The notes: generated by a model not told the origin, from the sequence alone. Positions 13,308 to 38,628 are shown, numbered from the stretch's first letter. The stretch: 58,342 bases of DNA from Halanaerobiales bacterium (GCA_025451675.1 JANWJZ010000056.1:1-58342), one strand, 5' to 3'. Translations and numbers: made by a program.

Positions 13308-13450
13308 AGAATCATCAAGAGTGGTGGAGGGACTGGCCCGATGAAACCCGGCAACCTACCCCGTTGAGGGAAAGGTGCTAAATCCTGCATTCCCACTTCA
13401 GGGAATGAGAGATGAGAGGACTTACATAACCCTCTCTGAGGGTTTTTTTC
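13308..13450 (+). ncRNA. SAM-I (S-box) riboswitch controlling metNIQ
   Basis: Carries the hallmark S-box core: AGAGTGGTGGAGGGA near 13319, then GATGAAACCCGGCAACC at about 13340-13356, a GGTGCTAAATCC element at 13374-13385 and a 3' P1 strand GATGAG near 13411. A short GC hairpin at 13430-13442 followed by seven T is the terminator. High SAM should terminate transcription before metNIQ. Confidence 0.95.
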
Positions 13451-16081: not shown

Positions 16082-16114
16082 GAAAGCACCTTTTTATAAG
16101 GTGCTTTCTTTTAT
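16082..16114 (+). terminator. Terminator of metNIQ
   Basis: An 11-bp perfect stem (16082-16092 with 16098-16108) with a short loop and a T-rich run after it. It separates metNIQ from the next operon. Confidence 0.88.
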
Positions 16115-16154: not shown

Positions 16155-16237
16155 AAACATATTATTGGGATTTATGGTTCGCAAACCGGGCTAATGTATA
16201 AAATTAAAAGTATATAAGACAAAGAGGGATGGATTAC

Positions 16238-17203
16238 ATGAAGATAGGAATACCCAGATCATTATTGTATTATTATTACTATCCGTTCTGGCAGACCCTT
16301 TTTGCAGAATTGGGTAACGAAGTTGTTGTATCAGACCCGACTTCCGGGGATCAGTTAAATGAAGGTGTGAAGGAGTCCGTTTCAGAGATATGTGTCCCCA
16401 TGAAGGTTCACATTGGGCAGGTCCTCAATCTTCTGGAGAAGGGAGTTGATCTGATCTATATCCCCCGCTTTGTGAGTATCAGAAGGGGTATAACTTTCTG
16501 TCCAAAATTTCTCGGCCTGCCGGATATGATAAAGAATTCCATAGCAGCAGTGAGGGGAAAGATTTTGACACATGAAATCAGGGCTAAAACAGATGATATC
16601 TCCGCTTATAAAAATTATACAATTTTTAGAGATATCTTCAGGGTCAGTAAAGGGGAATTAAAAAAGGCCCTGGAAGCTGCCAGGCAGAACTGGCTTAAAT
16701 TCAGAGCTTTACAGCAGGAGGGCTATAAAACCGAAAAACTCTTATTGGGGGAAAAGGAAAAGCGGGAAGAGGGTTTGTTAAAGATAGGGGTATTGGGTTA
16801 TGTCTATAATCTCTATGACCGCTTCATTAATATGGATTTTCTGGACCGCCTGGAGGAACTGGGTGCAAAGATTGTTACCTTTGAGATGCTGGATGGAGAC
16901 ATAGTCGATAGATTTATCAAAAATTTGCGGAAACCCATGTTCTGGGAGTTTACGAACAGGTTAATGGCCGCAGGCTATCATTTTATCAATTCAGCAGATA
17001 TAGACGGTATCATACATATTACTGCCTTTGGCTGCGGGCCTGATTCCATACTGGGCCCCTTTCTGGAGATAGATGCGGGGCAAAAGAATAAACCCTTTAT
17101 GACCTTAAGGATCGATGAACAGACCGGCGAAAGCCATCTTATAACCAGGATAGAGGCTTTTCTTGATTTACTGAAATTAAAGAAAAGAAGTGATATAGCA
17201 TGA
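16238..17203 (+). CDS. DUF2229/HgdB-like protein, probable Fe-S subunit of a dehydratase-like system
   Basis: 321 residues, soluble. The opening IGIPRSLLYYYYYPFWQTLF and VVSDPTSG match the DUF2229 module of large CoA-enzyme activases, related to the D-component of 2-hydroxyglutaryl-CoA dehydratase. It has exactly three cysteines, each in a conserved-looking context: C52 (SEICVPMK), C88 (GITFCPKF) and C266 (FGCGPDS). Three cysteines per subunit is the number that holds a [4Fe-4S] cluster in 2-hydroxyacyl-CoA dehydratases. ATG 16238 is chosen because AGAGGG lies about 9 nt upstream. It overlaps the next gene by 4 bp. The substrate is unknown. Confidence 0.75.
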   Translation: MKIGIPRSLLYYYYYPFWQTLFAELGNEVVVSDPTSGDQLNEGVKESVSEICVPMKVHIGQVLNLLEKGVDLIYIPRFVSIRRGITFCPKFLGLPDMIKNSIAAVRGKILTHEIRAKTDDISAYKNYTIFRDIFRVSKGELKKALEAARQNWLKFRALQQEGYKTEKLLLGEKEKREEGLLKIGVLGYVYNLYDRFINMDFLDRLEELGAKIVTFEMLDGDIVDRFIKNLRKPMFWEFTNRLMAAGYHFINSADIDGIIHITAFGCGPDSILGPFLEIDAGQKNKPFMTLRIDEQTGESHLITRIEAFLDLLKLKKRSDIA

Positions 17204-18306
17204 GGGTATCTTTTCCCTATATGGGTTCAACTATCGTCTACGGAAAACTCCTTGAATTATTGGGGCATCAGGTAGTCATGCCTGAACCGCCAACCCGGAA
17301 AACAGTAGATTTGGGGGTTAAATATAGTCCAGAATTTGCCTGTTTCCCTTTCAAGGTAATCATGGGCACCTATCTGGAGACCCTGGAAAGAGGGGTTGAA
17401 CTCTTTGTAACTACTGGAGGGCAGGGCCCCTGCCGGGCAGGGTTTTATGGAGAGTTACATAAAAAAATCATCCAGAATATGGGCTATGATGTAGATTTTA
17501 TAGTACTGGATCCCCCCTGGCGGGACTATGAAAAATTCTTCAGGCAGATATTGACTCTGAAAGGAGATAATTCCTGGTTTAAGGTGGCTGAGGTAATCCA
17601 CACTGTCTATAAAATGTGCAAATCAGTGGACATAATTGAGAAATTAATCACTACTGTCCGGGCTTATGCCGGTGACCGGGCCGCCTTAAATAGGAGCTGG
17701 CGGGATATCCTTACTGCCTATTCCCAAATAGAAACGGCCAGAGATGTGGCCCGGGTGGAGGAAGAAGCCTTAAGGGTGATAGAGAAATATGATATTAAAC
17801 TACCACCACAGGAAAAACGCATCAGAATCGGTATCGTAGGCGAGATTTATGTAGTGATGGAACCATCCATTAATGGTAATATTGAAGAAATCTTGAATTC
17901 ACTTGGCGCTGAGACTGAACGTTCCCTCTATCTATCAACCTATATCGATGAAACCATCTTTCCCTGGATCGGCAGAAAGGAGAAGAAAAAACTTATTAAA
18001 AAGGCCAGCGGATATATAGATCTTAACATTGGCGGCCATGCCAGGTTATCTGTGGGCCAGATAGTTGATTTTAAAGACAGGGGTTTTGATGGGGTTATTC
18101 ATCTGAAGCCCTTTGCCTGTTTGCCGGAGCTGATTAGCGAGAGTATGCTGGAGAAATTGTCGGCGGATCTGGATATGCCGATTTTATCCCTGTCTATCGA
18201 TGAACAGACAGCAGAGGCAAATATAATGACCAGGCTGGATGCTTTTGTTGATTTTATCAAATATGGCAAAGCATACAGTAAAGAAAGGGTGTCGCTAAGT
18301 GTCTAG
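17200..18306 (+). CDS. HgdB-like protein, second probable Fe-S subunit of the trio
   Basis: 368-residue soluble protein, distantly similar to the preceding gene product and to 2-hydroxyacyl-CoA dehydratase D-components. Three cysteines occupy positions equivalent to those of its partner: C48 (EFACFPFK), C78 (GQGPCRAGFYGE) and C307 (KPFACLPE); a fourth, C140, lies in a variable helix. Both proteins end in a matching DEQT-rich segment (SIDEQTAEAN here, RIDEQTGESH in the partner) followed by a RIEAF/RLDAF-like helix. The paired architecture suggests a heterodimer. It is flanked by overlaps on both sides (4 bp and 8 bp), so the three proteins are made together. Confidence 0.75.
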   Translation: MRVSFPYMGSTIVYGKLLELLGHQVVMPEPPTRKTVDLGVKYSPEFACFPFKVIMGTYLETLERGVELFVTTGGQGPCRAGFYGELHKKIIQNMGYDVDFIVLDPPWRDYEKFFRQILTLKGDNSWFKVAEVIHTVYKMCKSVDIIEKLITTVRAYAGDRAALNRSWRDILTAYSQIETARDVARVEEEALRVIEKYDIKLPPQEKRIRIGIVGEIYVVMEPSINGNIEEILNSLGAETERSLYLSTYIDETIFPWIGRKEKKKLIKKASGYIDLNIGGHARLSVGQIVDFKDRGFDGVIHLKPFACLPELISESMLEKLSADLDMPILSLSIDEQTAEANIMTRLDAFVDFIKYGKAYSKERVSLSV

Positions 18307-19294
18307 GGTGTATATTGGTGTTGATATTGGCTCAGTCAGTATTAATATAGTAGCCATTGGTGAAGATTGTGAATTGCTCTTTAGATTATACAAAAGGAAT
18401 ACCGGGCAGCCGGTGGAACTGGTTAAAGAAGGTTTCAAAGAACTACAAAAGGAATTAGGGGCGAAGAAGGAAATAGCCGGTGTCGGTGTAACCGGCAGCG
18501 GCCGCCAGCTGATAGGATACGTATTAGGTGCTGATATTGTCAAGAATGAAATTACTGCCCATGCTGCTGCAACAACCTTTTATTATCCAGAGGTAGGCAC
18601 TATCTTTGAGATAGGCGGCCAGGACTCAAAACTGATCATCATAAAAAATGGTATTCCCGTTGATTTTGCCATGAATACTGTCTGTGCTGCCGGGACCGGT
18701 TCCTTCCTGGATCACCAGGCAATACGCCTTGGTATCAGGATAGAGGAATTTGGCAAACTTGCCCTACAGGCCAAAAGGGATGTCCGGATTGCAGGCAGGT
18801 GTACTGTTTTTGCTGAATCAGATATGATTTCGAAACAACAGTATGGTTTCACCAAACCGGAGATTATTAAAGGACTCTGCCGGGCCCTGGTCAGGAATTA
18901 CATGAATAACCTGGTCAGGGGTAAACAACTTGAACCCCAATATATATTTCAGGGCGGGGTAGCTGCCAATGAGGGGATCAAAGCTGCTTTTGAGGAGGAA
19001 TTGAACCATGAGGTTATTGTACCGGAACACCATGATGTAATGGGGGCCATCGGGATTGCTATCCTTGTAAAAGAAGAGATGGAAAGGACCGGTAGGGGGA
19101 CCAGTTTTCGCGGCCTGGATTTTACCCGGGATGATTTTTACACAGATAGCTTTAATTGTGCAGGTTGTGCCAATGAATGTGAAATAATCAGGGTTAAGGC
19201 CAATGAAGAGGTTATTGCCATGACCGGAGACCGTTGCGGCAAATGGTCAGGCAGCATTTTAAATGTAAGGGACAGTGAGGAGAAACATGCTTAA
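18299..19294 (+). CDS. ATP-dependent activase of the HgdC/BadF type (ASKHA fold)
   Basis: 331 residues. The N-terminal YIGVDIGSVSINIVAI is an ASKHA phosphate-binding motif, followed by GVGVTGSGR, EIGGQDSKLI and FQGGVAANEG. The two cysteines that hold the interface [4Fe-4S] cluster in HgdC are present: C129 (NTVCAAGTGSF) and C168 (AGRCTVFAESDM), close to the HgdC positions. Such proteins hydrolyse ATP to push one electron into a partner enzyme. An extra C-terminal segment has C287, C290, C294 and C313, possibly another metal site. The GTG start gives an 8-bp overlap with the upstream gene. Confidence 0.88.
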   Translation: MSRVYIGVDIGSVSINIVAIGEDCELLFRLYKRNTGQPVELVKEGFKELQKELGAKKEIAGVGVTGSGRQLIGYVLGADIVKNEITAHAAATTFYYPEVGTIFEIGGQDSKLIIIKNGIPVDFAMNTVCAAGTGSFLDHQAIRLGIRIEEFGKLALQAKRDVRIAGRCTVFAESDMISKQQYGFTKPEIIKGLCRALVRNYMNNLVRGKQLEPQYIFQGGVAANEGIKAAFEEELNHEVIVPEHHDVMGAIGIAILVKEEMERTGRGTSFRGLDFTRDDFYTDSFNCAGCANECEIIRVKANEEVIAMTGDRCGKWSGSILNVRDSEEKHA

Positions 19295-19334: not shown

Positions 19335-19363
19335 TTGACAGTAAAAATATATTATGTTATCCT
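19335..19363 (+). promoter_or_regulatory. Promoter of the metY-metA transcript
   Basis: TTGACA at 19335-19340, 17-bp spacer, TATCCT at 19358-19363. It lies about 55 bp upstream of the second SAM riboswitch core, the same arrangement as for metNIQ. Confidence 0.78.
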
Positions 19364-19413: not shown

Positions 19414-20941
<1,528 letters not shown>

Positions 20942-38369: not shown

Positions 38370-38628
38370 AATATTGTTAAAGGCTGTGAAGGGAAGTAGT
38401 AGATATTGTACTGGCTGGCAGAGAGCTGGTGGTTGGTGCAAACCAGTAGCCGGTTAATATCGAACTCGTTCCGGAGCCTGAACGGTGAAGTATAGTAGCC
38501 GTTTACGTCTGGCCTGCGTTAATTGGCCTGCAATGAGCCGGAATATAATCCAGGTGGATTGTATTCAAACAGGGTGGTACCGCGGGTAAACCTCGTCCCT
38601 ATTACAGGAACGGGGATTTTTTATTATA
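38370..38628 (+). ncRNA. T-box leader controlling leuS, specifier codon CUC (Leu)
   Basis: The leader has the long T-box stem I with an AGAGAG/GCTGGTGG region near 38420-38430, a specifier-loop segment GAACTC (38463-38468... codon CTC at 38465-38467) and the conserved T-box AGGGTGGTACCGCG at 38571-38584, which binds the free tRNA end. A 10-position stem (about 38591-38600 with 38606-38615) plus a T run forms the terminator. It should let transcription through when uncharged tRNA-Leu (GAG) accumulates. Confidence 0.93.

Follow-up and report, generated by a model that had tools for sequence, protein, structure and literature searches.

The (R)-2-hydroxyisocaproyl-CoA dehydratase HadBC, together with its activator HadI (3O3M/3O3N, 4EHT), consists of two related subunits that each hold a cluster through three cysteines, and is served by a separate dimeric ASKHA activase. 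The double-cubane cluster protein (DCCP) and its reductase DCCP-R (6ENO, 7YYL) likewise depend on an ATP-driven activase, DCCP itself being a homodimer with six cluster cysteines per subunit. In the class I benzoyl-CoA reductases (BCR) BzdNO/PQ and MbdONPQ (8S02, 9GAI), which work with a related ATPase, the open [4Fe-4S]-OH2 cluster of BzdO is held by Cys95, Cys128 and Cys380, and six cysteines bind the double cubane of BzdN (PMC11971306). For DUF2229, COG3580 and COG3581, no work on function was found in the open-access literature.

Results

The window, a stretch of 58,342 nucleotides from a Halanaerobiales bacterium (GCA_025451675.1), encodes three overlapping genes on its plus strand: gene A (16238..17203), a DUF2229 (PF09989) protein with a predicted BCR/HAD-like fold; gene B (17200..18306), a second DUF2229/HGD-D-like subunit carrying a GGxGPC motif; and gene C (18299..19294), an ASKHA activase of the HgdC/HadI/DCCP-R type. 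A and B overlap by the sequence ATGA, and B and C by 8 nt. An alternative, longer frame of A begins at 16229, and the ATG at 16238 is preferred as the start on account of a Shine-Dalgarno-like GAGGG and of the homologues; the cysteines C52, C88 and C266 counted from this start become C55, C91 and C269 when numbered from 16229. Re-derivation of the open reading frames upheld the coordinates, start codon, gene overlaps and cysteine list of the first-pass annotation. In the compared loci, where open reading frames were called mechanically, A, B and C are consecutive with both gaps below 150 nt in 67 of the 74 single-copy trios examined, and the median gap is -4 nt for A-B as well as for B-C. This tight recurrence indicates that the trio is more than a chance arrangement and forms a real, co-inherited unit.

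Conservation of cysteines was counted over 76 complete trios. The three cysteines of A (C52, C88 and C266, codons at 16391, 16499 and 17033), the three of B (C48, C78 and C307, codons at 17341, 17431 and 18118) and the two interface cysteines of C (C129 at 18683 and C168 at 18800) are retained in 76/76 trios, as expected of homologues if the triads bind clusters in the way proposed at first pass. The four cysteines in the tail of C (C287, C290, C294 and C313) are kept in 74-75 of 76, the exceptions being gaps in truncated reading frames. No further invariant cysteine was found in A, B or C among the 76 trios; the next most conserved is C194 of C, at 71-85%.

Both A and B belong to DUF2229 (175.1 and 52.1 bits, respectively, against a gathering cut-off of 29.4), so that the earlier description of two related cluster-type proteins stands, with the correction that B as well as A is a DUF2229 protein. 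The profile searches suggested at that stage were positive for DUF2229 only: with HGD-D (PF06050), A and B score 26.0 and 25.6 bits, just below the gathering cut-off of 28.4, a threshold that a paralogous trio of the same genome exceeds (34.3 and 30.1 bits). AlphaFold models of A and B are confident (pLDDT 92 and 90) and fold like the BCR/HAD family in Foldseek comparisons with the PDB, A matching HadC, DCCP and BzdN and B matching DCCP and HadC. The matches of A open with 15 HAD/DCCP/BCR chains (E<=2e-5), after which come a NifEN (2e-4) and a sugar isomerase (6e-4); for B, all 18 matches at E<=0.001 are HAD/DCCP/BCR chains. TM-scores for both proteins are just 0.5-0.6, which places them at a distance from solved structures, and the rmsd of 7-9 A indicates that domain orientation differs or is uncertain.

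At the level of sequence, the best PDB match is DCCP, and in sequence profiles the third cysteine of both A and B aligns with the C-terminal FeS-ligand cysteine of DCCP and HadC. Alignment to genuine HGD-D proteins places C55 of A (16229 numbering) and the third cysteine of both subunits well, and the second cysteine is judged by spacing only, since the HGD-D profile alignment misplaces the N-terminal half of B. The resulting pattern is BzdO-like, with two cysteines in the first half, 30-36 residues apart, and one near the C terminus; A and B lack the other three positions needed for the six-cysteine set of a double cubane. From this pattern, A and B are each predicted to carry one site-differentiated [4Fe-4S] cluster, and the best reading of the models and profiles is that the trio belongs to the BCR/HAD superfamily.

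Gene C passes the acyl-CoA dehydratase activase model TIGR00241 with 188.5 bits (cut-off 125.4). Its closest activators in the PDB are HadI and HgdC (E about 1e-36 to 1e-35), and profile comparison with PDB activators reaches E 1e-50. By these sequence comparisons, C is an HgdC-type acyl-CoA dehydratase activase equipped with both cluster cysteines, C129 and C168, as first annotated. It falls below the cut-offs of the benzoyl-CoA reductase ATPase models (104.6 against 578, 78.6 against 312.85 and 71.4 against 380.2) and of the methanogenesis marker 15 model (132.2 against 455.75). Beyond the region in common with known activators, whose PDB alignments end near profile position 267, C extends into a tail of about 60 residues. 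The near-invariant four-cysteine motif in this tail, C-x2-C-x3-C-x18-C (19157..19237, plus strand), had also been noticed at first pass; it may form an extra FeS (or other metal) site.

Long fused proteins with the parts of the trio, which the first-pass annotation mentioned for many genomes, do exist: they are about 1450 residues long and combine ATPase, ATPase, tail, A and B in this order, with cysteines at matching positions. Six of the nine fused proteins contain the four-cysteine motif between the ATPase and the A domain. Fusion of these parts is good evidence that the products of A, B and C act together, and in the fused order the tail follows the ATPase and precedes the A subunit, a position fitting an electron relay. 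Two fused proteins, L038 and L040, have a variant tail spacing and, within their degenerate first ATPase domain, an extra N-terminal cysteine group (Cys 5, 9, 13 and 31 of the truncated frame). In the 90%-complete assembly of the genome, no HGD-D protein was found beyond the two trios, and full-length BadF/HgdC ATPases number two, one per trio, making it most likely that C serves A-B. Activation of some other dehydratase by C was considered, and no such enzyme was found in that assembly.

The trio lies between two methionine units. Upstream are MetN, MetI and MetQ, encoded in a metNIQ unit with a SAM riboswitch (13309..13418, plus strand; Rfam RF00162, 85.5 bits). Downstream are a homocysteine synthase, MetA and a threonine synthase, the homocysteine synthase-metA unit being preceded by a promoter-like site (19335-19363) and a SAM riboswitch of its own (19418..19524, plus strand; RF00162, 78.5 bits). 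The window also contains a T-box leader at 38377-38603. Between metQ and gene A, a strong intrinsic-terminator-like hairpin with an 11-bp stem and a T run (16082..16108, plus strand) sets the trio apart from the S-box unit before it, in agreement with the transcriptional independence assumed earlier for this side of the locus. The first-pass annotation had seen a hint of a sulfur-linked role in this location and had proposed a search of related neighbourhoods. No conserved sulfur or CoA gene was found near related trios in 46 loci and in second copies in other genomes; methionine neighbours are limited to the window, L007 and L008, which represent one genus, and related trios adjoin fumarase, ZIP, copper ATPase, TetR, IclR, Ku, SelB and other genes. 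Given these variable neighbours and the hairpin, position does not tie the role of the trio to sulfur, and we have dropped the suggestion.

Several non-spore trios have neighbourhoods of their own. In three loci of one family (L067, L069 and L071) the trio includes a second B gene (A-B-C-B') and is flanked by a glutamine synthetase-like gene on one side and the argS-pyrG region on the other. In L112 (7301-9196), SelB is encoded 48 nt 5' of the trio, and a similarly sized gene occupies the same place in L111. In L106 (4583-5977), a GltD/NfnB-like flavoprotein (Fer4_20 and Pyr_redox_2 domains) is encoded directly 5' of the trio and is a possible electron donor for it.

The same genome encodes a second trio on another contig (C38; L006:8193-11183), with three genes in identical order, 39%, 37% and 57% identity to A, B and C of the window, respectively, and every cysteine retained. 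This sister trio is located directly 3' of a sigF-spoVAC/AD/AE-spoVAF-like cluster, in which SpoVAD and SigF were identified and the SpoVAF-like protein is a match to the family of GerA-type germination proteins. The order sigF-spoVA-spoVAF-trio is common to about 20 genomes of the class, with 0-20 nt between spoVAF and A in many loci, pointing to likely co-transcription of the sister trio with spoVA; in other parts of the phylum the genes are arranged as spoIIAA-spoIIAB-sigF-spoVA(C,D,E)-[AF]-A-B-C. The frequency of the link was estimated from 71 genomes sampled separately and evenly across the phylum. Of these, 53 contain SpoVAD together with a trio-type A gene; in 34 of the 53 the A gene follows spoVAD on the same strand at a distance of 0.4-4.4 kb, where about 0.08 would be expected. 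Within the class, a spore-type A gene (defined by E<=1e-123) is encoded by 25 of the 27 genomes that have SpoVAD and by none of the 32 that lack it (Fisher p about 1e-14, shared ancestry being ignored), the latter being spread over several families. The spore-type clade of trios appears to belong to the genes for sporulation in anaerobic spore-formers. No published account of a link between the trio and spoVA was found in the open-access literature.

A tree of concatenated A-B-C sequences resolves two fully supported clades (100%) of 41 and 35 loci. Because loci were partly picked by their closeness to spoVAD, the tree informs on the separation of the clades and not on frequency. In the first clade 37 of 41 loci were scored as linked to sporulation genes, and in the second 0 of 35; L097 is a 38th linked locus, where the trio is 2 kb from a spoVAD gene that the ORF caller missed. 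The linkage label requires 4 changes on the tree, compared with 25.6 for shuffled labels. The trio of the window falls in the second, non-spore clade and has no sporulation neighbours. Trios of this second type persist in Halanaerobium-like genomes of the order that have no SpoVAD, so the window type does not need sporulation, and its placement suggests a vegetative, non-spore paralogue of the spoVA-linked trio. More broadly, 58 of the 59 class genomes contain DUF2229, and about three quarters of the genomes sampled from the phylum carry related A genes. The control genomes of Thermus composti, Deinobacterium chartae, Thermotoga maritima and Lactococcus lactis likewise encode DUF2229, which shows that the family extends beyond strict anaerobes.

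Discussion

We consider it probable that the products of the three genes make up a single archerase-type enzyme for ATP-driven low-potential electron transfer, of which the window carries a vegetative copy. Two C subunits would form an ASKHA ATPase dimer sharing a [4Fe-4S] cluster through C129 and C168, and the four-cysteine tail would hold an additional metal centre, probably FeS, at which electrons enter from ferredoxin or flavodoxin. ATP hydrolysis would then drive one electron onto an A-B heterodimer, in which each subunit would hold one [4Fe-4S] cluster by three cysteine ligands, leaving one iron site open; once reduced, the open cluster could carry out one-electron chemistry that activates or reduces a substrate. 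The sister trio would presumably perform the same chemistry in the forespore. This reading draws support from the invariant cysteine sets, the fold matches of A and B, a clear activase, the fused forms, a genome that has one ATPase per trio and lacks other HGD-D proteins, and the sister-clade data. Against it count the HGD-D scores just under the cut-off, the modest TM-scores and the matching of the second cysteine by spacing alone. The occurrence of DUF2229 in Thermus and Deinobacterium, largely aerobic groups, is a further point against, as an oxygen-labile low-potential enzyme is not obviously expected there.

A more specific proposal, to which we give about even chances, is that anaerobic endospore-formers possess a hitherto unrecognised ATP-driven low-potential (radical-type) enzyme whose genes close the spoVA operon and that is needed in the forespore, in the dormant spore or during germination, the trio of the window being a vegetative paralogue with the same chemistry. 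Attachment of the sister set to the spoVA operon in many anaerobic spore-formers points to a role in the spore. An energy-costly low-potential reductase in this operon would be unexpected from the Bacillus model, and the link raises a testable question, namely which substrate is reduced by anaerobic spores. If this reading is correct, DUF2229 proteins would represent a large group among the ATP-driven FeS enzymes, equipped with an electron-entry tail of its own, and one ancient clade of them would belong to the sporulation programme.

It is also possible, although we think it rather unlikely, that the trio is a protein reductant instead of a substrate enzyme, with A-B as a conduit that hands low-potential electrons to another protein. 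Reductive activators of this kind include the RACE proteins for corrinoid enzymes and the Mmp complex for methyl-CoM reductase. Such a role would be consistent with the lack of a conserved substrate-pathway gene near the trios of any clade, with the resemblance of the ATPase tail to an extra relay and with the flavoprotein gene just 5' of the trio in one lineage (L106). However, A and B retain the three-cysteine open site of a catalytic type and not a full set of relay ligands, and no client protein is conserved beside the trio.

The fold of A and B and the presence of activase C would suit a true (R)-2-hydroxyacyl-CoA dehydratase or a CoA-ester reductase of the known kinds, but we regard this as improbable: the NCBIfam HadC model gives 11.9 and 12.2 against a cut-off of 700, which led us to reject membership of the classical HadBC/HgdAB dehydratases, the benzoyl-CoA reductase models stay far under their cut-offs, CoA-transferase and acyl-CoA genes are absent nearby, and what the sister clade has long kept as its partner is a sporulation operon and not amino-acid fermentation. 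Still less probable is a regulatory function of the proteins, with the conserved cysteines serving as zinc ligands or redox switches. The CxxCx3C...C arrangement in the tail of C could equally well form a zinc site, whereas the fold of A and B and the interface cysteines of C are those of FeS radical enzymes. A double-cubane protein that reduces small molecules with its reductase is a shade more doubtful again, although DCCP is the best PDB match by sequence and one of the best by structure; A and B each conserve three cysteines, not six, and score 12 and 11.3 with the double_cubane model against a cut-off of 350, and membership of this group was rejected on both grounds. A bridging cluster formed from the 3+3 cysteines of A and B is conceivable, though we know of no precedent for one. 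The least probable reading is a sulfur- or methionine-linked redox system, which the location between two S-box units would favour, but this location is peculiar to one genus, the hairpin cuts the trio off from metNIQ and orthologues elsewhere have unrelated neighbours such as fumarase, ZIP, Cu-ATPase and TetR.

The reading of the trio as an ATP-driven enzyme with two cluster subunits can finally be set against the systems it most resembles. HadBC with HadI shares the two related subunits with three cysteines each and the separate dimeric activase, and is among the best fold matches; it differs in sequence (14-17% identity, with scores under the curated model) and in context, since no CoA genes lie near the trio, and the trio has an extra four-cysteine tail on its activase and a shorter A subunit. 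DCCP and DCCP-R have the fold and an ATP-driven activase in common with the trio, which instead of a homodimer with six cluster cysteines per subunit has two different subunits with three each. The class I BCRs resemble it in fold, in the three-cysteine set of BzdO and in their related ATPase, and differ in the double cubane of BzdN and in that the trio remains under the equivalog cut-offs. The fused proteins of about 1450 residues contain the A, B and C parts with matching cysteine positions and, in most cases, the four-cysteine tail, but unite them in a single chain (ASKHA-ASKHA-DUF2229-B) with two ATPase domains. The spoVA-linked trio of the same genome has the three genes, their order and their cysteines in common with the trio of the window, but is attached to the sigF-spoVA-spoVAF cluster and belongs to a separate, fully supported clade.
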